Below are positions 162-18,303 of a DNA stretch of 64,000 nucleotides, one piece after another. The notes under the pieces are model-generated. The model ran no database searches. It had not been told where the DNA came from and worked only from the letters and a program-made list of their open reading frames with translations. Position 1 is the stretch's first letter. Each line of letters starts with the position of its first letter. Source of the DNA: Enterovibrio sp. JCM 19048 (lineage in GTDB: Bacteria; Pseudomonadota; Gammaproteobacteria; Enterobacterales; Vibrionaceae); the NCBI GenBank assembly GCA_001310415.1, contig BAXE01000008.1, forward strand, positions 1-64,000. The letters are read 5' to 3'. The position numbers and the translations under genes are program-made.

Positions 162-464
162 ATGAACATTGTTGCGATCACCGCCTGTCCTTCCGGCGTT
201 GCACACACCTACATGGCTGCTGAATCTCTTGAACAGGCTGCGCTGGCGCGTGGCTGGACGATCAAAGTGGAGACACAGGGCGTTCTGGGCGCAGAGAACG
301 AAATCTCACAGCAGGATGTTGAAGAGGCAGACGCCGTTATTCTCACCACAGACATTGCCTTAAGTGGCACTGAGCGCTTCGACGGTAAAAAAGTGATTCA
401 AACCACCGTGAAACGCCTGGTGGTCGCACCTTCTGAAGCACTGGATGCGGCGGAGGCAGCGTAA
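162..464 (+). CDS. Orphan PTS fructose-type EIIB domain protein
   Basis: A 100-residue single-domain EIIB of the fructose/mannosylglycerate PTS family. It would carry phosphate on a cysteine between an EIIA and an EIIC. The phosphorylatable Cys is residue 9, in the motif TACPSGVAHTYMAA, which is diagnostic of this family. The ATG at 162 is preferred over an in-frame GTG at 147 because GGAG sits 6-7 bases upstream of it. The stop overlaps the next ATG (TAATG), so it is co-translated with the beta-mannosidase. No EIIC or EIIA lies next to it on this strand; the nearest partners are the EIIBC and EIIA encoded at 14.6-16.6 kb. It could be a trans-acting or duplicated B domain. The family call is firm, the sugar is unknown. 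Confidence 0.88.
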   Translation: MNIVAITACPSGVAHTYMAAESLEQAALARGWTIKVETQGVLGAENEISQQDVEEADAVILTTDIALSGTERFDGKKVIQTTVKRLVVAPSEALDAAEAA

Positions 465-2915
465 TGACAACAATGACCACACTGACACTGGATGGTGAAT
501 GGCAGCTGACCTCACTTAATACACCATCGATTACCGCTCCGATTACCCTGCCGGGAGACGTACACAGTGCACTGCTGGCGGCTGACATCATTCCTGACCC
601 CTACATGGGCTGCAACGAAACCAAGGTGCAGTGGGTGGGCGAGCACGATTGGCAGATGACACGTGAATTCACGGTGGATGCCGAACTGATGGCCGCCCGG
701 GAAGTCGATCTCAAGCTCAGCATGGTCGACACCATGGCGGAAATCGATATCAACGGCATCACCGCCATTACCTGCAGCAACATGTTCCGTCACTACCGCC
801 GCGATATCCGTCCTTTGCTGCGTGAAGGCAGTAACCAAATCATAGTTACCCTGAAGCGTGCTGACATTGAAGCCAAAGCGCGCGCCGAGCGCCTGCCGTT
901 TCCTGTGCCTTGGGCGGTGGGCAACAACCAGATCCCGCACATGAACACCCTGCGTAAAACCCAGTGCCACGCCGGTTGGGACTGGGGCATTTGCCTGCTC
1001 GCTAGCGGCATTTACGACAGCATCCGCATTCAGCCTGTTTCTCATGTCCGTTTACTCGACATGCGCACCGAGCAGCAGTGGCAGCATGATGGCCGCTGTG
1101 TTGTGGTCGCCAATATCCACACCGAAATGCTGGCTGGCGCGCAGCCACAACTGGCCGAATGTACGCTGGAAACGCCAGACGGTGAGCGCCATAGCCTTTC
1201 CGTGGCCATTGATGCTGCCGTGAATACGGTACGTTTTGAACTGGATAAACCGATGCGCTGGTGGCCAGCAGGATACGGCGAACAGCCGTTGTACCGCCTG
1301 CATCTGGCGCTGGATGGCCAGGTGATTGAAAAGCGCCTTGGCCTACGCGAACTGGCTGTTGATACCCAGGAAGATGAAATTGGTGCGGCCATGACCTTTA
1401 TGGTTAACGGCAAAGCCATTATGTCGAAAGGGGCTAACTGGATCCCGCTCGATGCCATGCCGGGCACCCAGACGCCGGCGCGTTACCGCCGCCTGCTGGA
1501 AGATGCCAAAGCCGCTAACATGAACATGATCCGCGTCTGGGGCGGCGGCATGTATGAGCGCGATTGCTTCTATGAGCTGTGTGACGAGCTTGGCCTGATG
1601 GTGTGGCAGGATCTGATGTTTTCCTGCGCCCTGTATCCATCGACACCGGAATTCTTGAGCGACGTGCGTGAGGAAATCACCGAGCAGGTACGTCGCCTGA
1701 GCGATCACCCGTCACTGGCATTGTGGTGTGGTGACAATGAAGTGATTGGCGCGATTGGCTGGTATCCGGAATCGAAGAACAACCGCGAAAAATACGTGGT
1801 TAACTATGATCGCTTAAACCGCGTGTTGCAGGAAGTGGTAGAGCGCGAAGACCCATCACGCCGCTTCTGGGCCAGCTCACCGTGCAACGGCGAACTGGAC
1901 TTCGGGGATGCCTGGCACGACGACAACAAAGGGACATGCATTTCTGGGATGTGTGGCATTCCGGCAAATCTTTCGATGCTTACCACAACATCAAGCCGCG
2001 TTTTTGCAGCGAGTTCGGCTACCAGTCATGGCCGTCACTGCCGACAGTAAAAACCTTTGCCCCCGAATCGGACTGGAACGTTACCTCACCGACGTTTGAA
2101 CAGCACCAGAAAAACGGCCGCGGCAACAGCATCATCACTGAAATGTTTACCCGCTATTTCCGTTTCCCAATGGACTTTGCCCAGATGCTGTACCTGAGCC
2201 AGGTGCAACAGGCGCTCGCCATCAAAACTGCCAGCGAATACTGGCGTGCAAACAAACCGGTCTGCCGCGGCATTCTTTACTGGCAACTCAACGACTGCTG
2301 GCCGGTCAGCTCCTGGTCGAGCATTGAATATACCGGCCGCTGGAAGCAGCTTCACTACCACGCCAAACGCTTCTTTGCCCCTCAGGCTGCCGTGTTTGTT
2401 GAAGAAGAAAACACGCTGCGTCTGCACCTTATCAACGATGAGCACCGTCGCTGCGACGTGAAGGGTCAGGTGACCTGGTATGACTGGCAGGGCGAGGTGA
2501 TTGATACCTGGCCGGTGGAAGCGTGCCTGGGTGAAGACGACAACCAGCTGGTGTGGCAGTGCGACCGCGAGGTGATCAACGAGCGCCAGCACCAGGCTTT
2601 TTCCATGTCGAGATTGAGGTGGAAGGTACCCGCTTTGCCAACACCTGGTTTGATGATGTGTACAAACGCCTGCCATTGCCCAAAGCCTCGGTCACCCCGG
2701 AGGTGAAAACGGTCAACGGCCAGGTGCAGGTGACATTCACCACGGACAAACCGGCCTTTTTCGTTCACCCGGAATTTGGTGGTGAAGGCCGCTTCAGCGA
2801 CGCCAGTTTTACCCTTATGCCATGTAGTCCGGTGACTGTCGATTACCTCGGAGAGGCAACGGCAGATGAACTGGCTCGGGATCTGACGGTTTACCACCTG
2901 GCGAACAGTTTCTAA
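464..2915 (+). CDS. Beta-mannosidase, glycoside hydrolase family 2 (two frame breaks)
   Basis: GH2 exo-beta-mannosidase, about 817 residues, no signal peptide, so cytoplasmic. It would release beta-linked mannose, as in Man-beta-1,4-GlcNAc of the N-glycan core or manno-oligosaccharides. The acid/base Glu is in ALWCGDNE (codon 1739-1741) and the nucleophile Glu in FCSEFGYQSWPS (codon 2011-2013); WGGGMYE and the N-terminal jelly-roll region are also typical. The reading frame breaks near 1932 (one G missing in a G run, between DDNKG and DMHFWDVW) and near 2600 (one T missing, between HQAF and FHVEIEVEG). Restoring both bases gives one continuous protein. It starts on the stop codon of the EIIB gene and is followed by the ABC binding protein. 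Family certain; the physiological substrate is inferred from neighbours. Confidence 0.9.
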
Positions 2916-2945
2916 TTAAGGTTTTCATGAAAGTAAGGACACGTA

Positions 2946-4604
2946 ATGCCGAGTAAAAAGACACTTGCAGCCCTCGTGCTTGCTGCATTAACCGCGCCCC
3001 AGGCGCTGGCTGAACAACGACATGAACTGACGATCGTGGCGGATTTCTATCCGACCATGATCCGCAACTTCAACCCGTACCTGTCGACTAACCTGCGTAC
3101 CACCACCGACTTTATCTATGAGCCGCTGGTGGTGTTTAACCAGATGCACGGCAACAAGCCGGTGATGCGTCTGGCGGAAAACTATTACCTGTCAGAGGAT
3201 CTGATGCAGGTAACGTTTGAGATCCGTGAAGGCGTCAAATGGTCAGACGGTAAGCCGTTTAGCGCGGAAGATGTGGTGTATTCCTTCGACCTTATCCGTG
3301 AAAAACCGGAGTTGGATCCGAAGGGCATGGATCGTTGGATTAAGTCGGTACGCCAGGATGGCAACAAGGTCATTTTTGACCTCACGGAAGTGAACACCAA
3401 CGTGCCTTACGAAATCTCTACCATTCCAATCGTGCCAAAGCACATTTGGAAAGACATTGAAAAACCGGAGCTGTTCACCAACGAAAATCCGGTAGGCTCA
3501 GGCCCGTTCACGGAAATCGACACCTTCACGCCACAGCTTTATGTCCAGTGCCGCAACCCGAATTACTGGGACAACGACAATCTGGAAGTGGACTGTCTTC
3601 GTGTACCGCAAATTGCCAACAACGACCAGTTGCTGAGCAAGATCATCAAGTCTGAACTGGACTGGACCGGTGCTTTTATCCCGGACATCGACATCACCTA
3701 TGCGGCGCGCAGCCCACACCACAAATACTGGTATCCGGCGGCAAGCCCGCAGGCGTTTGTGCTGAACTTCAAGTCGCCGCATCCGGGCAACAACGAGGCT
3801 ATCAATAATATTGATTTCCGCCGCGCGTTCTCGATGTCGATTGACCGCCAGAAGATCATCAATATCGCTTTCTACGGCAACGGTGTGGTGAACGACTACG
3901 CCTCTGGTCTTGGCAAAGTGTTTGAGTTCTGGGCCGATCCGGAAATCTACAACAAGCACAAAGGCTACAACACCTACAGCGTCGTCAATGCTAAAGCCAT
4001 GCTCAAAGACGCAGGCTTTGTGGATGTCGACGGTGACGGTTTTGTCGAAACCCCAACCGGCAAGAAAATTGAGCTGGAACTGCAATCCCCGACAGGCTGG
4101 ACGGACTTCAACAACGCCGTGCAGTTGGGTGTAGAACAGCTTCAGGCGGTCGGCATCAAAGCCAAGGCACGCACGGCAGATTTTGCGGTATACAACCAGG
4201 CGATGCTTTCTGGTACCTATGATGTGGCTTACACCAACTATTTCAACGGTGCAGACCCTTATCGCTACTGGAGCACGGGCTACCACTCCCGCTTCCAGGA
4301 AGGGGAAAGCATGCCGCGCTACGCCATGCATTTCTTCAAAAATGCCGAGCTGGACAGGCTGCTGGACACTTTCTACAAAACCGACAAGCAGGATGAGCAG
4401 AAGCTGATTGCCCATCAAATCCAGAAAATCATCGCAGAGAACCAGGTGACTGTGCCTGTGATGTCCGGCGTTGACGTTTACCAGTTCAACGAAAGCCGCT
4501 TTACCGGCTGGTGGAACGAGGGGAATCCGAAAGGCCGTCCATCGTCATGGGCGGGTGTGCCGGAGCGTCTGCTGCACGTGTTGGATCTCAAGCCGAGAGC
4601 GTAA
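2946..4604 (+). CDS. ABC importer substrate-binding protein, family 5 (oligosaccharide/peptide type)
   Basis: 552-residue periplasmic binding protein of the SBP family 5 cluster, which includes oligopeptide binders and also chito-, cello- and manno-oligosaccharide binders. It has a signal peptide of about 22 residues ending AQALA. Typical features are ADVVYSFDLIRE near residue 110-120, the FRRAFSMSIDR segment and a long C-terminal lobe. The C-terminal stretch YQFNESRFTGWWNEGNPKG recalls the Vibrio chitin-oligosaccharide binding proteins more than OppA; this is from memory, not a search. It is the first of five consecutive importer genes, and the glycosidase in front and peptidase/asparaginase behind suggest a glycan or glycopeptide ligand. 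A hairpin follows the stop codon. Intact. Confidence 0.85.
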   Translation: MPSKKTLAALVLAALTAPQALAEQRHELTIVADFYPTMIRNFNPYLSTNLRTTTDFIYEPLVVFNQMHGNKPVMRLAENYYLSEDLMQVTFEIREGVKWSDGKPFSAEDVVYSFDLIREKPELDPKGMDRWIKSVRQDGNKVIFDLTEVNTNVPYEISTIPIVPKHIWKDIEKPELFTNENPVGSGPFTEIDTFTPQLYVQCRNPNYWDNDNLEVDCLRVPQIANNDQLLSKIIKSELDWTGAFIPDIDITYAARSPHHKYWYPAASPQAFVLNFKSPHPGNNEAINNIDFRRAFSMSIDRQKIINIAFYGNGVVNDYASGLGKVFEFWADPEIYNKHKGYNTYSVVNAKAMLKDAGFVDVDGDGFVETPTGKKIELELQSPTGWTDFNNAVQLGVEQLQAVGIKAKARTADFAVYNQAMLSGTYDVAYTNYFNGADPYRYWSTGYHSRFQEGESMPRYAMHFFKNAELDRLLDTFYKTDKQDEQKLIAHQIQKIIAENQVTVPVMSGVDVYQFNESRFTGWWNEGNPKGRPSSWAGVPERLLHVLDLKPRA

Positions 4605-4612
4605 ACCGACAA

Positions 4613-4640
4613 CAGGAGTGCGCCCACCAGTGCACTCCTG
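4613..4640 (+). other. Intercistronic hairpin after the binding-protein gene
   Basis: Perfect 9-bp inverted repeat (CAGGAGTGC at 4613-4621, GCACTCCTG at 4632-4640) with a 10-base loop and no following T tract. Placed between the binding-protein and permease genes, it most likely protects the upstream mRNA from 3' decay, so that the binding protein is made in excess. This role is known for other ABC operons and inferred here. Confidence 0.55.
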
Positions 4641-4730
4641 ATCTTTCATATCAATCACCTTGATGAGCGTAATAAAGATTGCTGACAGGCAATTTTATTG
4701 GCGCGGGATCGTTGCACCTGAGGATAGGGT

Positions 4731-5713
4731 ATGGCTTTCTTTCTACGACGGTTGTCGTTTTATTTAATGGCGTTGCTGTTTGCCGCGACATTGAATTTCA
4801 TCTTGCCCCGCGCAATGCCGGGCGACCCGGTTACCATGATGTTTGCCAACGCCACGGCGCAGGTAACCCCTGAACGTATCGAAGCAATGAAAAAGCTGCT
4901 TGGCTTTGTCGACGCCCCTTGGTACCAGCAGTATTTTTCTTATCTGGGCAATATTTTTACCGGTAACTGGGGCTTGTCCATCAAGTACTACCCCATCACG
5001 GTCAATGAACTGCTCGGCAGCGCTGTGGGTTGGTCGCTGTTTTTGACCGGCTCGGCCATCATCCTGGCGTTTTGTATCGGCTCCGTGCTGGGCATTTTTG
5101 CCGCCTGGCGTCGCGGCAGCACTACGATGCCTTTATCTCCCGAGCATGCTGGTGTGCAGTCTATCCCGTCTGTGGTGGTCGCCATGCTGGTGCTCTACAC
5201 CTTCGCCATCGGGCTGGAATGGTTCCCGTCTGGCAACGCCTACACGGTCGGGACGCAGCCGGACTGGTCGAGTTGGGCGTTCTACAAAGATGTTGCTTAT
5301 CACGCTGTGTTGCCCTTGCTCTGTGCCACCGTTGGCCAGATCGGGGGCTTTTTGATCAGCATGCGTAACAACATGATCAACTTGCTCAACGAAGATTTCA
5401 TCACCATGCGAAAGCCAAGGGGTTGAGCGAAAACCGCGTGGTGTTCAACTACGCCGCCCGCAACTCCATGCTGCCAAGCGTGACGGCACTTTCTATGGCG
5501 CTCGGCTCTGCCATCAGCGGCCAGCTTATCGTGGAGATGATCTTCAACTACCCGGGTCTAGGCACCGTGCTGCTCAACGCTATCCATGCCCGTGACTATC
5601 AGGTACTGCAGGGACAACTGCTGCTGATGACCATGTTCATGCTGTTCTTCAACTTCCTCGCCGATCTGATGATCGTTTACCTCGACCCGCGCCTTCGCAA
5701 GGGAGGAAAGTAA
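4731..5713 (+). CDS. ABC importer permease 1 (frame breaks)
   Basis: DppB/OppB-type inner-membrane permease, about 328 residues, first of the two permeases of the importer. N-terminal membrane segment FLRRLSFYLMALLFAATLNF, then the family signature PGDPVTMMF and the C-terminal motif GLGTVLLNAIHARDYQVLQG. The frame breaks near 5408: the sequence reads ITMRKPRG then stop, whereas restoring one G gives ITMAKAKGLSENRV, which joins the C-terminal part. A second disturbed patch lies at about 5120-5160. Three one-base losses there cancel each other and leave a short wrong stretch (STTMPLSPEHAG) where family logic expects YDAFISPSMLVVQSIPS. Intact function is likely once corrected. Confidence 0.87.
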
Positions 5714-5715
5714 TC

Positions 5716-6735
5716 ATGAAAACCCTGTTCAAACTGCTGGCGGGCAATAAAAAGTCCCTCGCCGGTCTTATCATCCTGGCCATGTTTGCGCTCATCGCGA
5801 TCTTCGCGCCGTTGATCACCAAACACGCGCCGGATGTCGGCACCGGTAACCCGCACGAATACCCGGCCTTTATCGTTAAAGCCGCTAAAGCAAATCCTGA
5901 CGGCTGGATAGCGAAAAACCTCGCCAACAACCCGCGCCGCCTGATGATGTCGGAAGGCGCTGATCATGTGCTCGGTACGTCCCGCATGGGGCGCGATATC
6001 TGGTCGCAACTGGTTTACGGCGCGCGCACGTCACTGGCTGTCGGCGTGGGTGCCGGTGTCATGGTCTGTTTCCTGGCCACCGCGATTGGTGTGACCGCCG
6101 GATACTTTGGCGGCAAGGTGGATGACTACCTCTCTGCGGCCATGAACATCATGCTGGTGGTGCCGCAGCTGCCGCTGCTGTTTATCATCGCCGCCTTTAT
6201 CGGCCAGGCGGGGCCAGCAACCATTGCTGTGGTAATCGCGATAACCTCCTGGGCATGGGGCGCAAGGGTTGTGCGGGCGCAAACCCTATCGGTGCGTGAG
6301 AAAGAATTTGTCCGCGCCGCTGAAGTGCTGGGCGAGAAAACCTGGCGCATCATCGCTATCGAAATCCTGCCGAACCTGATGTCGATTCTGGGGGCGAGTT
6401 TTATCGGGTGTGTGCTGTTGGCCATCATGACTGAAGCCAGCCTTTCGTTTCTTGGCCTTGGCGATCCGAATGCCATCAGCTGGGGCGTGATGCTCTATAA
6501 CGTCCAGACATCCTCTTCCATGCTGATCGGTGCCTGGTGGGAAATCCTGCCGCCATGTCTGGCGCTGACTTTTATTGCGGTTGGTTTGTCGCTGCTCAAC
6601 TTTGCCGTGGATGAAATTGCCAACCCGCAACTTCGCTCGCACAAAGGGCTGCGCCTATGGAGCCAGCGCAATAAGTGGAGCAAGGCAGAGCCGGGCAAGC
6701 CTCGCCCTGTGTTTGGTAAGGAGGGTCAGGCATGA
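5716..6735 (+). CDS. ABC importer permease 2
   Basis: DppC/OppC-type permease, 339 residues, intact. It has an N-terminal membrane anchor (LAGLIILAMFALIAIFAPLI), a periplasmic loop, then GTSRMGRDIWSQLVYGARTSL, which is the standard entry to the permease core. The EAA-type loop that contacts the ATPases is in FVRAAEVLGEKTWRI. It ends with a long cytoplasmic tail after the last helix. It pairs with the permease encoded just upstream; the start lies 2 bases after the upstream stop, and its own stop overlaps the ATG of the first ATPase. Confidence 0.92.
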   Translation: MKTLFKLLAGNKKSLAGLIILAMFALIAIFAPLITKHAPDVGTGNPHEYPAFIVKAAKANPDGWIAKNLANNPRRLMMSEGADHVLGTSRMGRDIWSQLVYGARTSLAVGVGAGVMVCFLATAIGVTAGYFGGKVDDYLSAAMNIMLVVPQLPLLFIIAAFIGQAGPATIAVVIAITSWAWGARVVRAQTLSVREKEFVRAAEVLGEKTWRIIAIEILPNLMSILGASFIGCVLLAIMTEASLSFLGLGDPNAISWGVMLYNVQTSSSMLIGAWWEILPPCLALTFIAVGLSLLNFAVDEIANPQLRSHKGLRLWSQRNKWSKAEPGKPRPVFGKEGQA

Positions 6736-7709
6736 CAGACCCACAAATTTCTATCCGCGATTTGTGCGTGGATTACATTACCGATGCCGGGGATGTACGC
6801 GCGGTCAACCATGTCAGCTTTGATATCGGCAAAGGGGAAATCTTTGGTTTAGCCGGTGAGTCCGGCTGCGGAAAATCGACCGTTGCGTTTTCCCTGATGC
6901 GCCTTCACAAGCCACCGGCCTATATTTCCCAGGGGCAGGTGCTGTTTGATGGTCACGGCGACATCCTGCAAAAGAGCGATGAAGCCATGTCGCGCTTTCG
7001 CTGGAAGGAGGTTTCCATGGTGTTCCAGAGCGCGATGAATGCGCTCAACCCGGTGCTGACCATGGAAGAGCAGTTTTGCGATGTGATCCTACGCCACACC
7101 AACTTCACCCGCGAACAGGCGGTGCGACGCGCGGAGGGTTTGCTGGAAATTGTTGATATCCACCCAAGCCGTCTTCGTGACTACCCGCACCAGTTTTCCG
7201 GCGGTATGCGCCAGCGCCTGGTGATTGCCATTGCGCTCGCCCTTAATCCGAAAATGATCATCATGGATGAGCCAACCACGGCACTGGACGTGGTGGTGCA
7301 GCGCGAGATTTTGCAAAAAATCTATGCCCTGAAAGAGGAGTTCGGTTTCTCCATCCTGTTCATCACCCATGATCTCTCGCTGATGGTCGAGTTCTCTGAC
7401 CGTATCGGCATCATGTATGCCGGCGAGCTGGTGGAAGTGGCGCCGTCCAAACAAATCCTGACCACGCCGTACCACCCTTACACCCAGGGACTGGGCAGCT
7501 CGTTCCCGCCATTAACTGGCCCGAAAACGCGCCTGACCGGCATTCCCGGCAACCCTCTGAACCTGTTTGAAATCCCGGCCGGTTGCCGCTTCCAGGCGCG
7601 TTGCAGCAAAGCCCAGCCTGTCTGTTTCAGTCAGCCGACAGCGCTGCAACAGCTGGAGCCGGGGCGTCTTTCCAACTGCCATCTCTACACTGCGCAAATC
7701 CGGGGATAA
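6732..7709 (+). CDS. ABC importer ATPase 1 (DppD/OppD type)
   Basis: 325-residue ATP-binding subunit. Walker [10 protein letters not shown], signature FSGGMRQR, Walker [13 protein letters not shown] and the switch His in FITHDLS are all present. The C-terminal extension typical of oligopeptide/oligosaccharide importers includes the cysteine-bearing segment [15 protein letters not shown]; in relatives such cysteines can hold an iron-sulfur cluster. The start overlaps the preceding permease stop (ATGA). It forms a heterodimer with the next gene product to power import. Intact. Confidence 0.92.
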
Positions 7710-7718
7710 GGAGCCGTT

Positions 7719-8711
7719 ATGAGCAAGCCGACAGGAAAACTCATCATTGAGGGTAAAAACCTCGTTAAGGATTTTGCAGTTAACAGCAATACGCTGAACA
7801 AACCCAAGATGCGGGCCATCAACGATGTCTCGTTCAAAATGTACAAAGGCCGTGGTCTGGCGGTGGTGGGAGAGTCGGGCTCCGGCAAGTCCACCACTGC
7901 GAAGATGATTGCCAAAATGTATCCGCCCACCGCAGGCACTATCGAATACTGTGGCCGTGATATCCAGACCATCGCCCGTCGTGACGAGTTGATGCAATAC
8001 CGGCAGGGCGTGCAGATGGTGTGGCAGGATCCGTTTGGGTCGCTCAATCCCACCCACACCATTTTCCACCACATTGCCCGTCCGCTTTGCATCCACAACA
8101 AGGTGGACAGCCGGGATAAAAAGGCGCTGGAGGAGAAGGTTTACGATCTGCTGCTTCAGGTGGGGCTGACCCCGCCCAAAGAGACCGCGGCCAAATACCC
8201 GCACCAGCTTTCCGGCGGCCAGCGCCAGCGGGTGAACCTGGCACGCAATATTGCTGTTGGCGCAGAGGTGGTGTTGGCGGACGAGCCGACCTCCATGCTG
8301 GACGTGTCTATCCGCGCCGGTGTGCTGAACCTGATGGAAGAGATGAAGTTCGAGCGCGAAATGGCGCTGCTCTATATCACCCACGACATCGCGACGGCGC
8401 GCTATATCGCTGAAGATCTGGCGGTGATGTATGTCGGCCACATGGTGGAATGGGGCGATGTCGAGCAAATCATCCACGACCCGCAGCACCCCTATACCCA
8501 GTTGCTGGTGTCCGCCGTACCGGATCCCAACAAATCGATTCACGAAAAACTCAAAGGTAACCGTGGCGAGATCCCGCTCTGGACGCCGGAAAGTGTGGGT
8601 TGCCCGTTTGCCGGCCGCTGCCTTCACGCCACGCCGAAATGCCAGCACGCCCTGCCACCAGTTACTCAGTTAGCAGAAAACCACTTTGTACGTTGCTACC
8701 TCTACGAATAA
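7719..8711 (+). CDS. ABC importer ATPase 2 (DppF/OppF type)
   Basis: 330-residue second ATP-binding subunit. Walker A GESGSGKST, signature LSGGQRQR, Walker B VVLADEPTSMLD and switch ITHD are visible. The C-terminal cysteine segment (GCPFAGRCLHATPKC) is shared with its partner. It begins 10 bases after ATPase 1 and is preceded by AAGGAG. Intact, as expected for the fifth and last subunit of the importer. Confidence 0.92.
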   Translation: MSKPTGKLIIEGKNLVKDFAVNSNTLNKPKMRAINDVSFKMYKGRGLAVVGESGSGKSTTAKMIAKMYPPTAGTIEYCGRDIQTIARRDELMQYRQGVQMVWQDPFGSLNPTHTIFHHIARPLCIHNKVDSRDKKALEEKVYDLLLQVGLTPPKETAAKYPHQLSGGQRQRVNLARNIAVGAEVVLADEPTSMLDVSIRAGVLNLMEEMKFEREMALLYITHDIATARYIAEDLAVMYVGHMVEWGDVEQIIHDPQHPYTQLLVSAVPDPNKSIHEKLKGNRGEIPLWTPESVGCPFAGRCLHATPKCQHALPPVTQLAENHFVRCYLYE

Positions 8712-8735
8712 GTCGTGGCAACAGAGGAAATCAGG

Positions 8736-10119
8736 ATGATTCAATTTAGCTTTATCCGCACCCAAGAGACCGGCTCTGACTCGACCCGGACAGTGCGTAT
8801 TACCTTGGGAGAAAGCCGTTCACTGACACTTGATCAGGATGTCGACGGCTTCGACGGTGAAATCAGAAAAACGGCCTTTACGGTTGCTGATATTCAGGAC
8901 ACCGGCTTTTTACTCGCAACCACGTTCAAACGTGCCCAGACACTGGCGCTGCAGATCGACGACAGCGTCAAAGCGCTGTATGAACCGGCAGTTTGGGTGA
9001 AATGGTTGTCTCTGGGGCTGGCGCTGTCAGCTTACGACTACCAGCACAAAGCGAGCCACCTGCTTGAGCCAGCAATCAACGGGTTTGAACTGGCTTCGGG
9101 GGATCCGGCGCTGTGCGATGCCTTCTGCGAAGGTCAGGTACTGGCCGAAAGCCAGCTCATTGCCCGAGAACTGGTCAACAAGCCGGGCAATATTATCTAC
9201 CCGGCATCTTTTGTCAGTGCGGTGGAAGCGCTGGGCATGGATGGCGTCACGCTGACCTATCTCACCGAAGCTGAAATGGATGAACTGGGCTTTGGGCGGC
9301 TTGGTAGGGATTTCCCAGGGCAGTGAGCGCGATGGCCGTATGCTGTGCCTCGATTACTACCCGAAAAACGCCAAGACCACCATCGCGCTGGTGGGGAAAG
9401 GGGTCACGTTCGATACCGGCGGCATCAGCATCAAAGGCCAACTTCGCATGAGCACCATGAAAGTGGATATGGGCGGCGCGGCCGCAGTGTTGGCGCGATG
9501 AACGCCATTTCCCAACTGAACCTGCCTGTGCGCGTGATTGGCCTGTGTGGCCTGGTGGAAAACATGCCATCCGGTTGCGCCATCAAACCGGGGGATGTGG
9601 TAACTATGCTGTCCGGCAAGAGCGTCGAAATTATCTCGACCGACGCAGAAGGCCGCATGGTGCTGGCCGATGTGCTGCATTACGCCCAAAAACCTATCGT
9701 CCAGATACCTGATTGATATCGCCACCCTGACCGGCGCGACCGGTGTCTCCCTCGGTAAGGCCTATGCGTCACTGATGGGCAATGATGACCGCCTGATTGC
9801 GGCAGCCAAAACCGCCGGTGACACCTGCTCTGAGCCACTCTGGCATATGCCTATCGCCGATGATCGTTTTGAAGCGTCGCTGAAAAGTGATTTTGCCGAG
9901 CTGCGCCATGGTGCTGAAGACGGTGACGGTAACGCCAGTGTGGCGGCGACCTTCCTCAACCACTTTGTCTCGCCCAATCAGCCTTGGATCCACATCGATT
10001 CAGCGGCCATGTCCCTGGGCATGAACCATCGCAAGATTTACCCCAAAGCGGCATCAGGTTACGGCACCTTGCTGCTGACTGCGCTTTGCCAACAAATTGC
10101 TACCCAGAATGAAGAATAA
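8736..10119 (+). CDS. Cytosolic aminopeptidase, peptidase family M17 (several frame breaks)
   Basis: Leucyl aminopeptidase/PepB-type metallopeptidase of about 460 residues that removes N-terminal amino acids from peptides in the cytoplasm. Family motifs: [24 protein letters not shown] (metal and catalytic lysine region), the signature STDAEGRM and IDIATLTGA. The ATG at 8736 has AGAGGA seven bases upstream and is chosen over an upstream GTG at 8715. The frame is broken near 9295 (one extra G), 9494 (one G missing) and 9690-9710 (two bases missing). Correcting these gives one continuous M17 protein. Lying between the importer and the glycosylasparaginase, it may trim glycopeptides to single glycosyl-asparagine residues. 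Confidence 0.85.
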
Positions 10120-10129
10120 GGAAACACCC

Positions 10130-11055
10130 ATGATTTTGCTCGCTAACTCCGAAGCCTACCCAGGTATTGAAGAATCTGCCCGCCGCTTACAGGCAGGCGA
10201 AGAAGGGCTGCGTGCTCTGGTCGAAGGCATCAAGCTGGTGGAACTTGACCCGCGCGTGCGTACCGTGGGTTACGGTGGCTGGCCGAACGTGCTGGGTGAA
10301 ATGGAACTGGACGCCTCTGTGATGGACGGTGACAGCCTGCGCACCGGCGCGGTGGGTGCCCTGAAAGGATTTATGCACCCGGTAGAGGTCGCTTACAAGG
10401 TGATGACCGACCTGAACCATGAAATTCTGGTGGGCGAAGGGGCAGCTATTTTTGCCCGCGAAGTTGATGCGCTGGCTGGGGAGAACCTGATTGAGGACTC
10501 CAAAACCGTGTGGTGGGAAAAGCTGGAAGCGGCGATGACACCGGAGCAGCAGGCTGAATTTCCGAATGTGCCGCTGGCGCCGCTTTCAATAACGCTACCG
10601 ATCCGGAGCGCGTGCGGGATACCACGGTATTCCTTTGCAGCGACGGCAGTGAAAAGATCAGCGCGGCGACCTCAACCTCAGGCTGGGCGTGGAAATATCC
10701 GGGCCGTTTGGGTGATAGCCCAATCATTGGTGCCGGCTCTTACGCAGACAGCCGTTACGGCGCCTGTGCCTGCACCCACACCGGTGAGATGAGCATCCGC
10801 TGTTCGACCGCTCATGCCGTGGTGCTCTACATGAAGATGGGCATGACGCTGAATGAAGCGGTCTATGAGGCGATTAAGGATCTGGATTACCTCAAGGATG
10901 GTTACACCGAAGGGGTGACCATCCATGCGATTGACCGCTTTGGTAACCACAAGGTAGTGAGCCTGAACTGTCCGGGTAACATCACGTACTGGTTCTGGCA
11001 GACCGGAATGGACAAGCCGGAAGAGCGTCAGGCGGAAGTGATTTTCACCCGCTAA
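10130..11055 (+). CDS. Glycosylasparaginase (N4-(beta-N-acetylglucosaminyl)-L-asparaginase), Ntn hydrolase
   Basis: About 309 residues, Asparaginase_2/AGA family. It cleaves the GlcNAc-asparagine amide bond left after degradation of N-linked glycans. AGA hallmarks: VGYGGWPN and LDASVMDG in the alpha part, then DTTVFLCSDG, where the Thr after Asp (codon 10621-10623) is the autocleavage nucleophile. These are followed by TSTSGW and GRLGDSPIIGAGSYAD, which distinguish AGA from plant-type asparaginases. No signal peptide, so a cytoplasmic version. The start at 10130 follows AAGGA. One frame break near 10586 (probably one T missing) separates the two halves; the nucleophile is in the downstream half. 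Last gene of the plus-strand operon, just before the terminator. Confidence 0.88.
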
Positions 11056-11068
11056 CGCCCTGAACCGA

Positions 11069-11100
11069 AAAAGCCGTTTGAGCAATCAAACGGCTTTTTT
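11069..11100. terminator. Bidirectional terminator between convergent operons
   Basis: Stem AAAGCCGTTTG / CAAACGGCTTT with a 6-base loop, A-rich on the left and a run of T on the right. It ends the glycosylasparaginase operon on the plus strand and the RpiR gene on the minus strand. Confidence 0.85.
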
Positions 11101-11125
11101 GCATCTGTTTTTTTATCCGCCAGGA

Positions 11126-11927
11126 CTATTCGCCGAACGGCGCTTCGGTGGAGACCCAGTTTCTGATGGTGTCGCGGTTGGTCGAGACGTAATGGGAATA
11201 GAGGTGGTCGATTGCCATCAGGATGGGTAGCTGGGCCGTGATCATCCCGGTGCGCTCTTCACCGTGCAGCGACGCTGTCAGCAGCGTTGCGGTTGCGTGT
11301 TGCGCCAGCTGGATTTGCCGTTGGCAGTGATGAGATAGGTCGCAATGCCGCGGGAGGTCAGGTTTTTCACCATCTTCGCCATGTCCGCATTCAGGCCATT
11401 GAGGCTGAGCACAATCACCAGGTTTTCCGTGGTCAGTATGTCCTGATACATCATCATGGAGTTGGTGTCCTGCACCACCTCTACGAATTTGCCCAGGCGG
11501 CCAAAGCGGAACTTGAAATCCCCACCGGCCAGCGCGCTGAAACCGGTACCGAACACATGGATGATCTGGTGGCGGGCAATGGCCTTGGTGATTTGTTCAA
11601 TCACGGTTTCATCCAGACAGGTATCCAGCTGTTGCAGCAGGTCAAAATAGTCCTGGTGCAGGCTTTCATGCCCGCGTCTGGCTGGGGGATTTTGCTGTCG
11701 AGCTGCTCTTGATAGAGAAACAGCAACTCTTTGAGATTGTTCAGGCCAATCTTGCGGCAAAAGCGGGTAATGGATGCGGTGGAGACCCCGATATCAACCG
11801 CCAGTTCTTCGATGGTTTTGACCGGTTGGCGGGCAAGGAAGTAATCGGCGATTTTGTTGTCGGTGGCGGTGAACTTGCTCCGTGCATATTCAAAAAGCAG
11901 TCCGATATCTTTATTCATCAGTACCAT
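11126..11927 (-). CDS. RpiR-family transcriptional regulator (two frame breaks)
   Basis: About 268 residues. The N-terminal RpiR helix-turn-helix (SKFTATDNKIADYFLA, then IEELAVDIGVSTASITRFCR) is followed by a sugar-isomerase (SIS) effector domain (IHVFGTGFSALAG, IVLSLNGLNADMAKM). Family members sense phosphosugars. The frame breaks near 11668 (one G missing at DAG-HESLHQ) and again near 11310. Correct reading continues as QLAQHATATLLTASLHGEE to a stop at 11126, well past the apparent premature stop. It is the last gene of the PTS/alpha-mannosidase operon and is the natural candidate to regulate it, and possibly the facing operon as well. Confidence 0.85.
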
Positions 11928-11972
11928 AGTCTGTCATTCATTCGCCCCACTAACGTAGGGCGAACGCTCCGG

Positions 11973-14629
11973 TTATTCAAGCGGGATTTTGAAAGTGCGA
12001 ACTTGCTTGGCACGAAATGCGCCGGGTGTCAGGTCGCCGTACTCCATGGCGACAGGCGCAAGCGTTTCCAGCAGCATATTGGTTTCCGATGCCGTGCCGG
12101 TCGGCACATGGACAGCGATCTCGCCGCTCTGTTCCACGCTTCGCTCCGACGGGTTGAACAGGCGAAGGCAAAGGGCGTTATCCTCAAACTGCATCGCACT
12201 GTAAACAAGGGAATCTGTGCTGAGTGCCAACAGGCTAAAGGTGTCACAAACCGCCTGTTTGAGCGGATGCATCACAAAATACTTCAGGGTGTTGGTGAAC
12301 TGGTTCAGCGTCTGCGCCTGATAGTAAGGCAGGCTGACGCTCCAGCACTGGTGCTGGGTTGCACTGCGCGCCGGGTTAAATTCGTTGTCCAGTGCGATAG
12401 CAAATTTGGCTTTCTGCTGGCCGCGCATCTGACTGTCTGGCGTTGGGATGTATTTGTACTGCTGGCCGGAGGCAATGCCAGGGCGGCGCAGCAAATCCGG
12501 TTTTCCAAGCCAGCCAACACTGCGGAACAGGGTCAGCGCCAGTTTGCCGCTTGGCGATTGCGGTGAGTCCAGCAACACTTCGTACTCTTTGACGCCCTGC
12601 GCCATGACGGTCAGGCTCAGGTTGTCATCAGACAGGTTGGCATAGCTGATCATCGGATAGATGCCGCTTGGCTCTTCCTTCCAGCCACGTTCGCGCCAGT
12701 CTGCCATTTGGCTCTGGTAAACCGGGCGTCGGGCAAAACCAAACGGGGTATCTGCGATGCTCTCCCGGGTCTGGATTGGGCTGTTGACCACCAGTTGCAG
12801 ACGGTGATCGTCAGCCTGGTTGTCGACGCTTAGCTCAACCTGCAAAGGCTGCTCATCGGCGGTTAACGTCAGTGTCAGCGTATAGCTGCACTGGGTATCA
12901 GCAAATCGCTGTGCGCGGGCTTCAAGGTTTTCAGGCAGCAGCCAGTGACCTTTCAGTGTCAGGCTTTGCTGCAGTTCGCCACATTGGGTGGTGTAATCGG
13001 CGTGGTTGAAACCCAGATCCAGAACCCAGTCCTGCGCCGGCGGTGAATAGTCATAGGTATCACCATCATCCCCGCCATCACGCACGGACAGAAATTGTGT
13101 CCATTGCTGGCCCAACTTTTTGTCGGTCAGGTGTAATTCACCCTGGGTGAACACAATGCGGTAGCGTTCGTTCTCGATGCTGTTGCTGTGGCTTTCAGAC
13201 ACAGAATCCAGTGCAGCGCCTTTTTCGTTCAGCACCAGGGAGGTAAACCCAAGAGCTGGCAGAGCATGACGAAGCGCAATGGTGGTCTGGAAGTAATAGC
13301 CATCCGGCGCATTGTCTTTCGGATCGCGCTGGATACTGCCGTTGTAATGCCGGGTTTGGGACAATACATCAAAAGGAACATTCTCGCCTTCAAGGGTAGA
13401 CAGGCTAAAACCGCCGGACTTGGTGGACAGGGTCATTGTCTGCACCTGCGAGCGGGAAAACGGCAAGGTGTTGAACAGGGTAATTCGGCTGCCGTTTTGC
13501 AGTGCTGGCTGGGATTCGGCCAGCTTGCGCACCAGATAGTCACAGGCCGAGCCTGACATCTGGTCGACCTGCTCAAAGCGCTCAAGGATGATCTTGTTGG
13601 TTTTGTCTGTGTTGCAGGCACCGGCACTGTCATGGGCGTGGTTGCGCGTCATGGTGCGCCAGAGATTATCCAGCAAGGTTTTCTGGTAGCCGATACCAAA
13701 GCGGGTAGCGAGCACCATCAGGGCTCCAGCTCCAGTGTCAGCCTGCGCTCCAGCACATCATTCCAGCGTTTGTGATCGGCGCGGGAAGAATAAATCGAGC
13801 GGTGAATTTTCGATGCCTGACCATCAATCATCTCGCCACTCAGGCAGTCCATTGGCAAGTTCTGCTCGGACAGCTTGGCAAACAGGGCGTCGTAACTGCT
13901 TTCAATCAGACGGGTATCCATCTGCTTTTCTGCCAGTTGCTGGTTAAACAGGGCAATGCGTGATTTGACGTTGAAGTCGACGAAACGCTGGTCGCCGCCA
14001 AGCGGCAGGGCGATATCGTCAGACAGGCAGCCTTTGGACACCTGCGCAGCCATGGCTTCGGCATCATCACAGTAGATTAGCTGTCCGCCGACGTAGTAGC
14101 CATCGCGGATGTTGTAGAAAGTGACCAGACTGCCGTCTTCGCTTTGCCACTGGCCTTCACGGTGTGGGTAGACATCGGTCGACAGGCCGCGCCAGAACAC
14201 GGTTTTGTCGATGCCGACGCCATTGTAGATTTTGGGCATGTCCATGCTCTGGCCGAAGGCATCCGGCACATAACCCAGCATTTCCACCTCGCCCAGTGCG
14301 CGGCCAAGGCTGATCCCAAGCTGAAGGTTGCGGATGATGGATTCACCCGCAATGATCAGTTGGTCAGTCTGGGTATACCAGGGGCCGATTTTCAATTTGC
14401 CGCTGCTGACCAGTTCGGTAAAACGGGCTTTTTGCTGCGGGCAGGCGTTGAGGTAATCTTCAACAATGCTCAGTTGCCCATCCAGGTAGTAGCTCTCCAC
14501 GTCCCCGGATTCCAGGGCGTCCATCACCTCATCCATATGGTAAATCAGCTGGATAAGGGACTCATGGGCGGAGAAGTACCATTCAAAATCCCAGTGAGTA
14601 TGGGAGATCACATGAAGTTGTTTTGTCAT
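11973..14629 (-). CDS. Alpha-mannosidase, glycoside hydrolase family 38 (MngB-like; one frame break)
   Basis: About 885 residues, no signal peptide. The N-terminus HVISHTHWDFEWYF carries the zinc-binding His/Asp (residues 10-14). YVPDAFGQS contains the expected nucleophile Asp, and NHAHDSAGACNTD is the second metal/active-site region. Length and motifs match E. coli MngB, which hydrolyses 2-O-(6-phosphomannosyl)glycerate after PTS uptake. The frame breaks at 13720, where restoring one C joins TLELEP to LMVLATRFGIGYQ. It is preceded by the EIIA gene (18-base gap) and followed by RpiR. Substrate alternatives are PTS-imported alpha-mannosides such as mannosylglycerate, or alpha-mannosyl N-glycan fragments from the facing ABC operon. 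Confidence 0.9.
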
Positions 14630-14646
14630 TACGCTGCCCGCCGGGT

Positions 14647-15093
14647 TTAAGCAATCAGGTGGTGAATGGTGTCGACCACCGTTTCTGTGTCACCGGTTTG
14701 CAAGGTATTGCGGATATCCGGCTTCATCATGGCGCGGGATACTTTGGTCAGCATGACCAGACTCTCCTGCGCACCTTCGGCCGGAATCGCCAGCGATACC
14801 ACCGCCGAAACTGGCTCATCGTCCATGGTTTCCCAGGCGATAGGGTGGGCAAAGCGCACCACAAAGATGGCCGGTAAAATCACGTGCTCTGACTTGCAAT
14901 GAGGAACAGCAATCCCCCCCATAAAACCGGTGCTGTCGTGTTCTTCGCGCGCCTTAAGACCCGCAGCGAAACCGTCGACTGAGCTGACAACGCCAAGGTG
15001 GTATGCGTTTTCGGCAATAAAACGGAACGCTGCTTCCTGTGTGGTGGACTGGGTATCTGTCAGGATGTGTTGGCTTGAGAATACGTTTGTCAT
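14647..15093 (-). CDS. PTS fructose-type EIIA
   Basis: 148-residue EIIA of the fructose/mannitol class. The phosphorylated His is residue 65 in GGIAVPHCKS. It would take phosphate from HPr and pass it to the EIIB of the neighbouring EIIBC, or to the orphan EIIB at 162-464. The ATG at 15093 is preferred over one three codons upstream because AGAGGA lies just ahead. The EIIC gene probably stops six bases before this start. Intact. Confidence 0.9.
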   Translation of the reverse strand: MTNVFSSQHILTDTQSTTQEAAFRFIAENAYHLGVVSSVDGFAAGLKAREEHDSTGFMGGIAVPHCKSEHVILPAIFVVRFAHPIAWETMDDEPVSAVVSLAIPAEGAQESLVMLTKVSRAMMKPDIRNTLQTGDTETVVDTIHHLIA

Positions 15094-15098
15094 GGCAA

Positions 15099-16627
15099 TC
15101 ATCCTCTGACACTGCGGTGTTCAGCGCCGGTTCGGCTTTTTGCTCTGTCGCGGCTTCTGTGGTGACGGCCGGTTGCGGACGACGCCAGAAGCCGATGATC
15201 ATCGCAGTCAGGGTAATACCCGCCAGCGTACAGGCAATCCAGGTCACGAATGGGATAGGTTGCTCGATGTAACCGACAAAGGTGCCCAGTGGAGAGCCGA
15301 TGCCACCGTAGAATTTCACGTCCAGATAGCCAACCAGACCACCTGCAAGGGCAGAGCCTGCCACACTGGCGGTGATAATTTGCAGCGGGTTGGCCGCCGC
15401 AAACGGGATCGCACCTTCAGTAACCCCCACGATACCCATGCCGAATGCAGAGTTGGCAGAGATTTTTTCGGTCGCAGAAAAGCGTTTGGCAAACAGTTTC
15501 GACGCCAGGAAGATACCCAGTGGCGCGACAGAAATGGCAGCCTGAGCAGCCGTGCCGGGTACAAAGTTCGCGCCTTCAATGCCGTATTTGGCAACGGTAT
15601 CCGTCCAAACAGCGGTACCGAAAATCAGCGCGGTTTTGTTGACCGGGCCACCGAAGTCGAAACCGATCATGGCACCGATGATGGCACCGATAATGAAGGT
15701 GGAAGAGGCGTAGTTGGTAGTCATCCAGTTCAGGCCGTCATACAGCGCACTCATAGCGCCGGCAATCGGCTGGCCGATCAAATACAGCACCACGACAGTG
15801 ATAAAGAAGGTTGCGATCAGTGGGATCACCATGATGGGAACGATGGGTTGGATGATCTTCGGCCATTTAACCTTTTTCAGGTATTTAACGAAGTAGCCCA
15901 CCAGGAAAGCCACCAAAATTGCAGACAGGAAACCGCCACCGGCGTTGGTGCCAAGAAAGCTTGGGTCATTTGCCATGTAAGCGCCAGCATCGCAGGGGCA
16001 ATTGCAGGGCGGTCAGCAATCGAGTTGGCAACGAAACCGGCAAACAGCGGGATCATCAGGGTGAAGCCAATCTGACCAACTTTGAACAGGTGGAACATGA
16101 AGTAGCCCAGCGGATCTTCCTGATCAAACCCCCACGCGACCATGCGGCCAAGATCGTCTTTCTGGAAAGCAAAAACGTTGGCGATAGCAGCAGCAGACCG
16201 GCGGCAATCACCATAGGTACCATGTAGGAGATGCCACTCATGATGTGTTGTACAAAACCGTTTTCGTTGGTTTTGCCCAGGGTGACATTGCGACCTTGGT
16301 GCCTTTTGCGCCAAACACAGTGGCATTTTCTTCGGCTTCTTTGATCAGTCCCATCGGGTCTTTGATCGCGGCTTTCGGGCGGGTTTTGTAAACGCGCTTA
16401 CCGGCAAAGCGGGCCAAATCAATTTCGATATCAGAGGCGATGATCACCAGATCTGCTTCACTGATCTCTTTCTCTGTCAGCACGTTTTCAGCGCCGATAG
16501 AGCCCTGGGTTTCGACTTTGACAAAGAAATTGTGTTCTCTTCCTGCTTGTTCCAAGGCTTCAGCAGCCATATAGGTATGCGCGATACCGGCTGCACAAGC
16601 GGTTATTGCCACCACGTTTTTGGTCAT
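15099..16627 (-). CDS. PTS fructose/mannosylglycerate-type EIIBC (several frame breaks)
   Basis: Fused EIIB-EIIC permease of about 510 residues. The N-terminal EIIB has the phosphorylatable Cys at residue 11 in TACAAGIAHTYMAA. A linker follows, then the membrane EIIC with GISYMVPMVIAAGLLL, GFVANSIADRPAIAP, GGGFLSAILVAF and the FDFGGPVNKTA signature. Frame breaks lie near 16290 (one A missing, joining GTKVA to NVTLGKTNENGFVQ), near 16190 (one G missing) and near 15980 (one G missing). A further break close to the C-terminus is inferred, because the uninterrupted frame runs 145 bases into the EIIA gene whereas a one-base correction gives a TGA at 15099. Imports and phosphorylates a sugar, plausibly an alpha-mannoside given the adjacent GH38. 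Confidence 0.85.
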
Positions 16628-16698
16628 GAGGTTCTCCTTCTACGACCGACGAAAGGAATAGGGACGGCCAGATAATGAAAATTTTCTCATTTCTCAAC

Positions 16699-16714
16699 TG
16701 TGATGGAATTCATA
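16699..16714. promoter_or_regulatory. Candidate CRP-cAMP site upstream of the PTS operon
   Basis: TGTGA-N6-TCATA, nine of ten conserved half-site bases, 72 bases upstream of the EIIBC start and in the gap shared with the divergent AraC gene. Catabolite activation would suit a PTS/glycosidase operon. Judged by eye against the known consensus. Confidence 0.5.
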
Positions 16715-16859
16715 ATAGCTATTTTATTGTAAATTTTTACAGTTAAAGGGTGCACTCCGTCATGGAAAAAAACGGTCAAAGCTGTAAATTTTTTCACCGA
16801 AAGCTGAACGGCTTTTAGCTTGGTTGATTTTATTTTCATCGGAATGTAGCGAGCCCTTT

Positions 16860-17688
16860 ATGTCCCATGCCCCTTTGTTGTCAGAACATCTCTCGTTTTT
16901 GGCTATGGCCGACAGCGTTTTGAAGATGCGGACGATTGCTGACAGGCACTGTTATCTGGCGGTTTCTTGCGATGACGCACCGCTGCTGGCCTGGAAAACG
17001 CCAGTATCAGAATGGAGATGGTTACGGAAGGTGAGCTCGAAATGCTGTTCAGTGGGCAAGGTGGTCAGCGAGAATCAAAAAGGCTGGGTGCCGGGGATGT
17101 GCTGTTTGTGGCGAGCAACGGCTGGAATCTGCCGTTGGTGGAGAAAGCCAACACCCTGAGTATCTGCTTTCGCGAAAACAGATTGTGGCTGAGCTATAAC
17201 CATTGGCAGGATGGCCGATGTATCAGTCTTGCGCGTTGGGATCTGGCCATGCCGGAAGCAGAAAGGTCAGGTGAGGCATACAGCCAAACAGATGTTGAAC
17301 AGGTTATGACGGTATTGGCATCAGCCTAGAGATAGAACTGGAGAAGGCGTCGCGCCAGCGTCAGCTGTTTCATCAGATCTTGACGTATTTACGTTGTCAT
17401 TTCGATGAGCCTATCTGCCGCGATTCTGTCGCGCGCCAGTTTTGTATCTCGCCGAGCTACCTGTCGCACTTGTTTATGCAATATGGCGAGGTGGGGTTTA
17501 ACGAGTACATCAACCGTGAACGTTTTGCCCATGCGCAACATTTGCTGGTGGAGAAGGGGTTAAGGGTGAAGCAGGCCGCACTGGAAAGTGGCTTTGTGGA
17601 TGCAGATTATTTCTGTCGCCTGTTTAAGCGCTTGGCGGGCATGACGCCAACCCAGTACCGTAAACAGCACGATGCGCTGGCGTTTTAA
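16860..17688 (+). CDS. AraC-family transcriptional regulator (two frame breaks)
   Basis: About 277 residues. The N-terminal part looks like a cupin-type effector domain (GELEMLF, LGAGDVLFVASNG). The C-terminal part holds the two AraC helix-turn-helix motifs (DSVARQFCISPSYLSHLFM and VKQAALESGFVDADYFCRLFKRLAGMTPTQYR). Breaks near 17000 (one A missing) and 17313 (one G missing) interrupt it. The ATG at 16860 is used, giving MSHAPLLSEHL. It is divergent from the EIIBC gene across a 232-base gap holding the candidate CRP site, so it probably controls the PTS/alpha-mannosidase operon. Ligand unknown. Confidence 0.82.
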
Positions 17689-17751: not shown

Positions 17752-18261
17752 TTACTTCTTGATGCGCAGTACTGGAGTTTCACCAACAGTAACAGAACCA
17801 GACAGCTTGTTCAGCTCTTTGATTTCGTCCATGTTAGAGATAACAACAGGAGTCAGGGTAGACTTCGCTTTCTCTTCCAGCATAGCCAGATCGAATTCGA
17901 TGATTGGGTCACCAACTTTAACAGTCTGACCTTCTTCAGCGATGCGCTTGAAGCCTTCACCTTTCAGCTCAACGGTATCAATACCGAAGTGAACGAACAG
18001 CTCGATGCCGTCTTCAGATTCGATAGAGAATGCGTGGTTAGTTTCGAAAATCTTACCAATGGTACCGTTTACTGGTGCAACCATTTTGTCGCCAGCTGGT
18101 TTGATCGCGATACCGTCGCCCACGATTTTCTCAGCGAAAACAACATCTGGCACATCTTCGATGTTTACGATTTCGCCAGACAGTGGTGCGATGATTTCGA
18201 TTGCGCCAGCGTCGCTGCTGTCGTCAGAAACCAGCTTTTTCAGTTTGTCAAACAGACCCAT
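17752..18261 (-). CDS. crr: Glucose-specific PTS EIIA (EIIA-Glc)
   Basis: 169 residues, full length. Phosphorylation site His91 in [10 protein letters not shown] and the supporting His76 in [10 protein letters not shown] are present. It transfers phosphate from HPr to EIICB-Glc and is the regulator that drives inducer exclusion and adenylate cyclase activation. Third gene of ptsH-ptsI-crr, 42 bases after ptsI. The base composition is smooth and there are no frame problems. Confidence 0.97.
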
Positions 18262-18303
18262 AGTGTTTGCTCCTAAGCGTTTACAATACTTTGCTGCCGT
18301 ATT

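Follow-up and report, generated by a model that had tools for sequence, protein, structure and literature searches.

A 64,000-nucleotide window from Enterovibrio sp. JCM 19048 (contig BAXE01000008.1, positions 1 to 64,000) opens with an island, positions 162 to 17688, through which the bacterium plausibly imports an N-glycan stub still tied to asparagine and dismantles it in the cytoplasm. The island is probably the intracellular half of an N-glycoprotein-feeding pathway, and on the best reading of its sequence the imported substrate would be Man(0-1)GlcNAc2-Asn (Man, mannose; GlcNAc, N-acetylglucosamine) or a short glycopeptide, taken up whole. The argument draws on gene content, the ancestry of the substrate-binding protein (SBP), the conservation of its ligand contacts, and co-occurrence across genomes. 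Family searches resolved a forward-strand operon (operon A) encoding, in order, a phosphotransferase system (PTS) EIIB subunit, a GH2 glycoside hydrolase, the SBP, two permeases and two ATPases of an ATP-binding cassette (ABC) importer, an M17 aminopeptidase, and a glycosylasparaginase-like Ntn hydrolase, here labeled AGA. Facing it on the reverse strand, operon B encodes EIIB, EIIC, EIIA, a GH38 alpha-mannosidase, and an RpiR-family regulator, with an AraC gene divergent from it. A preliminary description of this DNA had proposed two facing operons with most of these genes and hydrolases without signal peptides. The gene set was borne out by the family searches and by Pfam analysis of the intact AGA, GH2, M17, and GH38 proteins of Enterovibrio calviensis, and the N-termini, judged by eye without a predictor, agree with the latter claim.

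The same description proposed a complete family-5 ABC importer, by implication one of the peptide kind. The importer is complete, with permeases resembling OppB (4731 to 5715, frameshifted, end approximate) and OppC (5716 to 6735) and ATPases resembling OppD (6732 to 7709) and OppF (7719 to 8711), all on the forward strand. However, PDB matches and a phylogenetic tree identify the periplasmic SBP (2946 to 4604, forward strand, signal peptide recognized by eye) as a paralogue of the chitobiose-binding protein, and plain peptide import was therefore dropped. The best PDB matches of the E. calviensis SBP were chitin-oligosaccharide binding proteins of Vibrio (1zty, 5yqw, and kin; VcCBP/VhCBP) at E < 1e-245, and the next family, which includes a mannoside SBP, followed at 1e-51. 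Aligned with seven chitin-locus SBPs of Vibrionaceae, the window SBP shows 66 to 75% identity.

Scanning named genomes for this SBP yielded 67 loci, 22 of which carry AGA. M17 is present in all 22 of these and GH2 in 15, while OppDF is absent from the locus in 11. Among the other 45 loci, 30 carry the GH20 gene of the chitobiose operon, in most cases accompanied by GH9, a kinase, and a sensor kinase recognized by eye as ChiS; the GH9, GH20, and kinase assignments were checked by Pfam on one member each. In a maximum-likelihood tree of 66 rows (59 distinct), the 30 AGA-linked SBPs, which include the window's and some identical pairs from two collections, form one clade (SH-aLRT 100) nested in the chitobiose-locus proteins, and the nearest relatives of the window SBP are all from Enterovibrio. 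SBPs of 480 amino acids or fewer and loci L096 to L101 were left out of the tree, which therefore has neither of the frameshifted E. coralii SBPs (L092, L102). We also viewed the surroundings of AGA in 13 of the 25 AGA genomes besides the window's (G081, G036, G031, G060, G013, G041, G067, G054, G061, G044, G126, G051, and G124) and found a chitobiose-type SBP nearby in 12, G013 being the one without.

According to excerpts of PMC10667598, VcCBP contacts its ligand at sites 1 and 2 and through Arg27 at site 3. Twelve contacts, listed from those excerpts and from excerpts of PMC8449061, were compared between the 30 AGA-linked SBPs and 26 chitin-group SBPs, a group from which L062, L072, L085, L089, and L090 had also been removed (L089 and L090 deviate at several contacts). 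Nine contacts (Asp9, Arg27, Asn203, Phe221, Trp362, Asp364, Asn408, Arg435, and Trp512) are identical in 30 of 30 AGA-linked SBPs; Phe410 is kept in 24 (Val in 6) and Phe436 in 23 (Tyr in 7), the changes occurring in some Enterovibrio. Ser220, in contrast, is found in none of the 30 (Ala in 25, His in 5) and in all 26 of the chitin-locus SBPs counted. Other changes specific to the AGA clade adjoin contacts, at positions 8, 411, and 511 in VcCBP numbers, and position 417 is also distinctive of the clade. As described in excerpts of PMC8449061, that serine is positioned, through water, close to the carbonyl of the N-acetyl group on the inner (non-reducing) sugar, and Arg436/Phe437 contact the N-acetyl group of the outer sugar. 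With the contacts kept and Ser220 lost, we infer that the site would still fit GlcNAc in position 2 while the inner position has relaxed. The nested clade and the conserved site-1 and site-2 contacts, Ser220 excepted, place the protein in the chitooligosaccharide-binding family, and the AGA-linked SBP thus appears to keep a GlcNAc-disaccharide site. Only tentatively do we suggest the precise ligand, Man-beta4-GlcNAc-beta4-GlcNAc-Asn, for which this retuned duplicate would hold mannose instead of GlcNAc in the innermost pocket.

AGA (10130 to 11055, forward strand, frameshifted, start approximate) belongs to the Asparaginase_2 family: the E. calviensis orthologue scores 184 bits against PF01112, and its nucleophile Thr and GRLGDSP stretch align with annotated glycosylasparaginases. 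The corresponding motifs RDTTVFL and GRLGDSPI are present in the window DNA; we take the threonine to be the nucleophile and GR-x-GDSP to be the substrate motif. The best PDB matches of the E. calviensis protein are glycosylasparaginases (117 bits versus 97 for the best L-asparaginase entry). Its identity is 88 to 92% with four others from chitobiose-type loci and 60% with two AGAs from elsewhere in Vibrionaceae; a Phyllobacterium protein follows at 57%, and proteins of Thermomicrobium and Calothrix at 42 to 45%. We place AGA in a subfamily not yet characterised, with a predicted glycosylasparaginase activity. Lactobacillus casei AsnA2, at 28% identity to the Elizabethkingia enzyme, still cleaves GlcNAc-Asn according to excerpts of PMC6960285, so sequence distance alone does not exclude this activity for AGA.

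Relatives of AGA occur in other settings. A second group, 58 to 62% identical, is found in 8 of the 296 Vibrionaceae genomes that make up our co-occurrence set (L107 to L114), together with CutC and a LacI regulator; its importers are of the amino-acid ABC type in seven and, by eye, MalEFG-like in one. The CutC-family gene lies near AGA in all eight loci (for example L107:12332-13075 and L114:10676-11434; Pfam on L107), adjoins an annotated glycosylasparaginase in Hymenobacter (L184), and stands beside GH20-GH38 in L210:1687-2433; CutC may act on an AGA product. In Phyllobacterium (L179:2088-11744), an AGA relative sits in a run with both sugar and amino-acid ABC importers, as if for a sugar-amino acid. 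In the Vibrio renipiscarius locus (L046, 15.7 to 18.1 kb), M17 and AGA are 90% and 95% identical to those of E. calviensis, compared with 78% for the SBP and 62% for GH2, a contrast that suggests transfer of the M17-AGA part.

GH2 (464 to 2915, forward strand, in three pieces through frameshifts) carries the motifs WCGDNE and FCSEFGYQ in the window DNA. Its E. calviensis orthologue combines GH2 with mannosidase Ig domains and finds its best PDB matches among beta-mannosidases (E 1.3e-155); motifs and nearest solved relatives together identify a predicted beta-mannosidase. M17 (8715 to 10119, forward strand, frameshifted) shows FDTGGI and STDAEGR, and the family domain is present in the orthologue. 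We take these motifs, like those of AGA and GH38, to mark catalytic or active-site positions.

Throughout the 296 genomes, we defined the presence of this AGA as at least 84% identity over the C-terminal 147 residues, which 26 genomes satisfy. GH92 occurs in 48 genomes, comprising 22 of the 26 with this AGA and 26 of the 270 others (Fisher 3e-16, ignoring shared ancestry). For GH2, homologues at E 1e-30 or better turn up in every one of the 26 AGA genomes and in 75 of the 270 others, counts that likewise ignore shared ancestry. Among the 18 genomes of genus g1, nine have both AGA and GH92, one AGA only, one GH92 only, and seven neither. A tandem GH92 array without this AGA stands beside a PTS in the genus g12 genome G171 (L166:8266-19994, L167:1697-3561).

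In the genome of the window itself, five tandem GH92 genes, split into 13 pieces by frameshifts, lie on another contig (C4, 215.5 to 229 kb) and encode proteins with lipoprotein-like N-termini. The array is flanked by an HPr-EI-EIIA protein on one side and by AraC-EIIB-EIIC on the other (domains checked on the E. calviensis copies). The EIIC of this locus in E. calviensis is 84% identical to that of an EIIC-EIIB-AraC set immediately preceding GH2-SBP-permeases in the AGA locus of Photobacterium, so parts that are split over two loci in Enterovibrio stand together in Photobacterium. GH92 and GH38 surroundings were viewed for part of the genomes; in six loci, two of which are one genome twice, GH92 and AGA are a few kb apart (Pfam on one). 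The preliminary description had seen no beta-N-acetylhexosaminidase in the island and expected one to be encoded elsewhere. Two GH20 regions are indeed present in the genome, making that step available; one belongs to a separate chitobiose operon, whose SBP paralogue shares 59% identity with the SBP of E. calviensis. A search for GH85 endoglycosidases came up empty in all 18 genus-g1 genomes and matched 2 of 296 family-wide (control positive in Lactococcus lactis; GH18-type endoglycosidases not searched). The peptide N-glycosidase model PF12222 matched none of the 18 (control positive in one genome); PF09113 also matched none, with a control positive nowhere, so that its absence is not demonstrated.

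From these elements we infer a pathway in which the substrates, enzyme activities, enzyme locations, and order of steps are all predicted. Outside the cell, GH92 exo-mannosidases would trim high-mannose N-glycans, with the freed mannose entering by a fructose-type PTS, and secreted proteases would cut the remainder down until Man(0-1)GlcNAc2 is left on Asn alone or on a very short peptide. The periplasmic SBP, the duplicate of the Vibrio chitobiose-binding protein, would capture this stub, and the ABC transporter belonging to it would bring the stub into the cell. Cytoplasmic enzymes would then act: GH2 would take off beta-mannose, M17 would release Asn from its N-terminal neighbours, and AGA would split the GlcNAc-Asn bond into Asp and an amino-sugar decaying to GlcNAc(2), which would join the known chitobiose pathway through GH20 and a kinase. 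The GH38-PTS-RpiR genes would form a second, separable mannoside-import module, often accompanying GH2, that probably handles phosphorylated alpha-mannosides from the same glycans. The original proposal of glycopeptide import and cytoplasmic breakdown is thus favored by the recurring SBP-permeases-M17-AGA core, the GlcNAc-disaccharide site, the co-occurrence with GH92, and the availability of GH20, but its single linked island and its peptide-type importer did not hold.

The expectation that the two operons stay together failed for most relatives: RpiR-GH38 lies beside AGA in 4 of the 22 AGA loci (L036, L037, L038, and L092), with L035 ending too early to tell. In another Enterovibrio genome (G063, L200), GH38-RpiR directly faces GH2-EIIB in the convergent layout that the flanks of the window island also show, and AGA is on another contig. 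RpiR-GH38 being mostly not beside AGA, and the genes being so arranged in G063, the island is best described as two modules joined; the operons can be separated, and only part of Enterovibrio carries them next to each other. GH38 (11973 to 14629, reverse strand, frameshifted at about 13718, no signal peptide by eye) carries HTHWDFEW, GYVPDAFGQ, and RNHAHDS in the window DNA. A window-like GH38 (E 1e-150 or better) is present in 21 of the 296 genomes at 45 to 100% identity, 12 of them with this AGA and 16 with a GH2 homologue. It lies at most about 7 kb from GH2, without the ABC-AGA block, in G063, G149, G124, G138, G132, G083, and G013. In G149, GH92 and both PTSs adjoin GH38-GH2; neighbours in G138, G132, and G083 include a porin, RpiR, a ROK kinase, and GH20 (partly by eye; Pfam on G138). 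Most simply, the window island may be read as this mannoside module carrying the ABC-AGA block within it.

Several observations weigh against the import and cytoplasmic breakdown of an asparagine-linked stub. AGA is 32 and 30% identical to two annotated Bacteroidota glycosylasparaginases and 33% to the E. coli isoaspartyl peptidase IaaA, and it carries Asn where the alignment shows an N-terminal Trp in both annotated enzymes. None of the eight genomes with the 58 to 62% identical AGA has GH92, and they use other transporters; G013, an AGA genome, has a MalEFGK-like importer (by eye) rather than a chitobiose-type one (L116). Seven of the 22 AGA loci have no GH2 at the locus, and window-like GH38 occurs without this AGA in 9 of its 21 genomes and without a GH2 match in 5. 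The chitin-locus SBP L072, a row dropped from the count, also has Ala at 220 (plus Ile at 512). The Fisher values ignore phylogeny: 19 of the 26 genomes with GH92 and without this AGA belong to genus g12, whose single genome with this AGA has no GH92. Finally, an importer of glycosyl-Asn needs extracellular proteolysis.

These points bear on what else the locus might do. AGA could cleave another N4- or beta-linked aspartyl compound, such as isoaspartyl peptides or N-substituted asparagines, in a modified-peptide scavenging system with the GH genes as passengers. Its near-equal identity to annotated glycosylasparaginases and IaaA, the missing N-terminal Trp, the neighbouring M17, and the amino-acid ABC genes adjoining the Phyllobacterium relative all fit such a role. 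We nevertheless consider it unlikely, because the SBP retains a GlcNAc-disaccharide site, AGA genomes have a GH2 homologue (26 of 26) and GH92 (22 of 26), glycosylasparaginases rank first among the PDB matches, and the Phyllobacterium run has a sugar ABC importer as well. The ABC transporter might instead be a second chitooligosaccharide importer in a locus serving chitin use, with GH2 acting on minor mannosides, as its identity to chitin-locus SBPs, its preserved chitobiose contacts, and the presence of a canonical chitobiose operon in the genome would allow. Yet that operon already provides for chitin, the AGA-linked SBPs have uniformly lost Ser220 and changed near other contacts, and chitin leaves AGA, M17, GH2, and GH92 unexplained, which makes this account distinctly improbable.

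It is also conceivable that the GH38-PTS operon is a mannosylglycerate (mngAB) system and a chance neighbour of the AGA operon, since the best NCBIfam model for GH38 is mannosylglycerate hydrolase and the PTS subunits match the MngA model too. However, the GH38 pieces score 398 and 308 bits against an equivalog cutoff of 1138, which places the protein outside MngB, and the E. calviensis GH38 is 33.5% identical to E. coli MngB. A much closer mngAB, 51 to 77% identical to that of E. coli in pieces, is encoded in the same genome (C12, L203). Window-like GH38 lies near GH2 in the seven genomes above, with GH20 adjoining in three (by eye; Pfam on one). Such a coincidence is very improbable, and a mannosylglycerate role for the window GH38 was dropped given its distance from MngB and the closer copy on C12.

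The stub import pathway would have a precedent in L. casei, where, in excerpts of PMC6960285, the alf-2 pathway serves cytoplasmic use of the glycoasparagine fucosyl-GlcNAc-Asn. As in L. casei, a glycoamino acid would be imported whole here, and one cluster would combine a cytoplasmic exoglycosidase, a signal-less glycosylasparaginase, and a peptidase gene. The L. casei cluster as excerpted differs in using the MFS permease AlfH and the fucosidase AlfC where the island has a chitobiose-derived ABC importer and a beta-mannosidase, and in having PepV, not required there, where the island has M17 (PMC6960285). With the EndoD/NgtS/CPL system of Streptococcus pneumoniae, as it appears in excerpts of PMC5215778, the proposed pathway has in common that GH92 would trim the glycan, that an ABC transporter would import a fragment of it, and that GH38 would act inside the cell, with ROK kinase and GH20 genes in the locus. 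The pneumococcus, by contrast, relies there on the endoglycosidase EndoD (GH85) and imports Man3-5GlcNAc already cut from Asn, whereas here the sugar-Asn bond would be cut inside, and GH85 matched none of the 18 genomes of genus g1. Relative to the Vibrio chitobiose operon in excerpts of PMC8449061 and PMC10667598, the order of SBP and permeases and the ligand-contact residues are alike; M17-AGA takes the place of the downstream GH9-kinase-GH20, Ser220 is replaced, and OppDF is gone in half of the AGA loci. The annotated E. coli mngAB record likewise pairs a fructose-type PTS with GH38, unlike the window in sequence, in its regulator (MngR instead of RpiR), and in its unsplit PTS subunits, a separate mngAB being present in the genome. 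What distinguishes the island from the L. casei and pneumococcal systems is where its importer comes from, the absence of GH85, and its AGA subfamily.

We found no description of such an N-glycan route in Vibrio, Photobacterium, or Enterovibrio in the open-licence literature, nor in that literature a paper on N-glycan use by Xanthomonas or anything helpful on Trp11 of glycosylasparaginase; two papers there name glycosylasparaginase and Vibrio once each. If the pathway is real, Enterovibrio, Photobacterium, and Aliivibrio would eat N-glycoproteins without GH85 by means of a copied chitin importer. The GH92 arrays of these bacteria would be explained, and the AGA subfamily would gain a substrate. 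The SBP would then represent a natural experiment in which a few binding-site residues turn chitobiose recognition into glycoasparagine recognition.

The remaining features complete the island. The first gene of operon A, unnamed in the text of the preliminary description, encodes a fructose-type EIIB (147 to 464, likely ATG start 162, forward strand; TIGR00829) with the motif CPSGVAHTYMA at 186. A terminator-like hairpin of 16 pairs (11066 to 11101) separates the convergent operons, though the number of such sites overall does not clearly exceed chance (25 versus a shuffle mean of 21.8, standard deviation 4.8), and a promoter scan gave 7 sites, fewer than the shuffle mean of 10.8. On the reverse strand follow RpiR (11124 to 11927, frameshifted, end approximate; intact in L036) and, beyond GH38, EIIA of the fructose/mannitol type (14647 to 15102), fructose-type EIIC (15000 to 16290, frameshifted, ends approximate), and a second EIIB (16238 to 16627). 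EIIC is 91 to 98% identical in the other Enterovibrio loci viewed. The AraC-type regulator (16824 to 17688, forward strand, frameshifted, read by eye) has 82 to 86% identical matches adjoining PTS genes in relatives.

The window starts at position 1 of contig C8 in a genome of 5.27 Mb, 70 contigs, and 87.5% completeness. GH2, OppB, M17, AGA, RpiR, GH38, EIIC, and AraC are all split by frameshifts in this assembly. In E. calviensis (L036/L106), the operon A genes, RpiR, and GH38 are all open (GH38 being cut by the locus end in L036), so the frameshifts here are likely assembly errors. Directly past the AraC gene, by eye, are glucose EIIA (crr) and ptsI (17752 to 20031, reverse strand), and the island thus adjoins the general PTS operon. 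Further along, a frameshifted secreted protein (24139 to 25619, reverse strand) resembles, by eye, a chitin-binding lytic monooxygenase.

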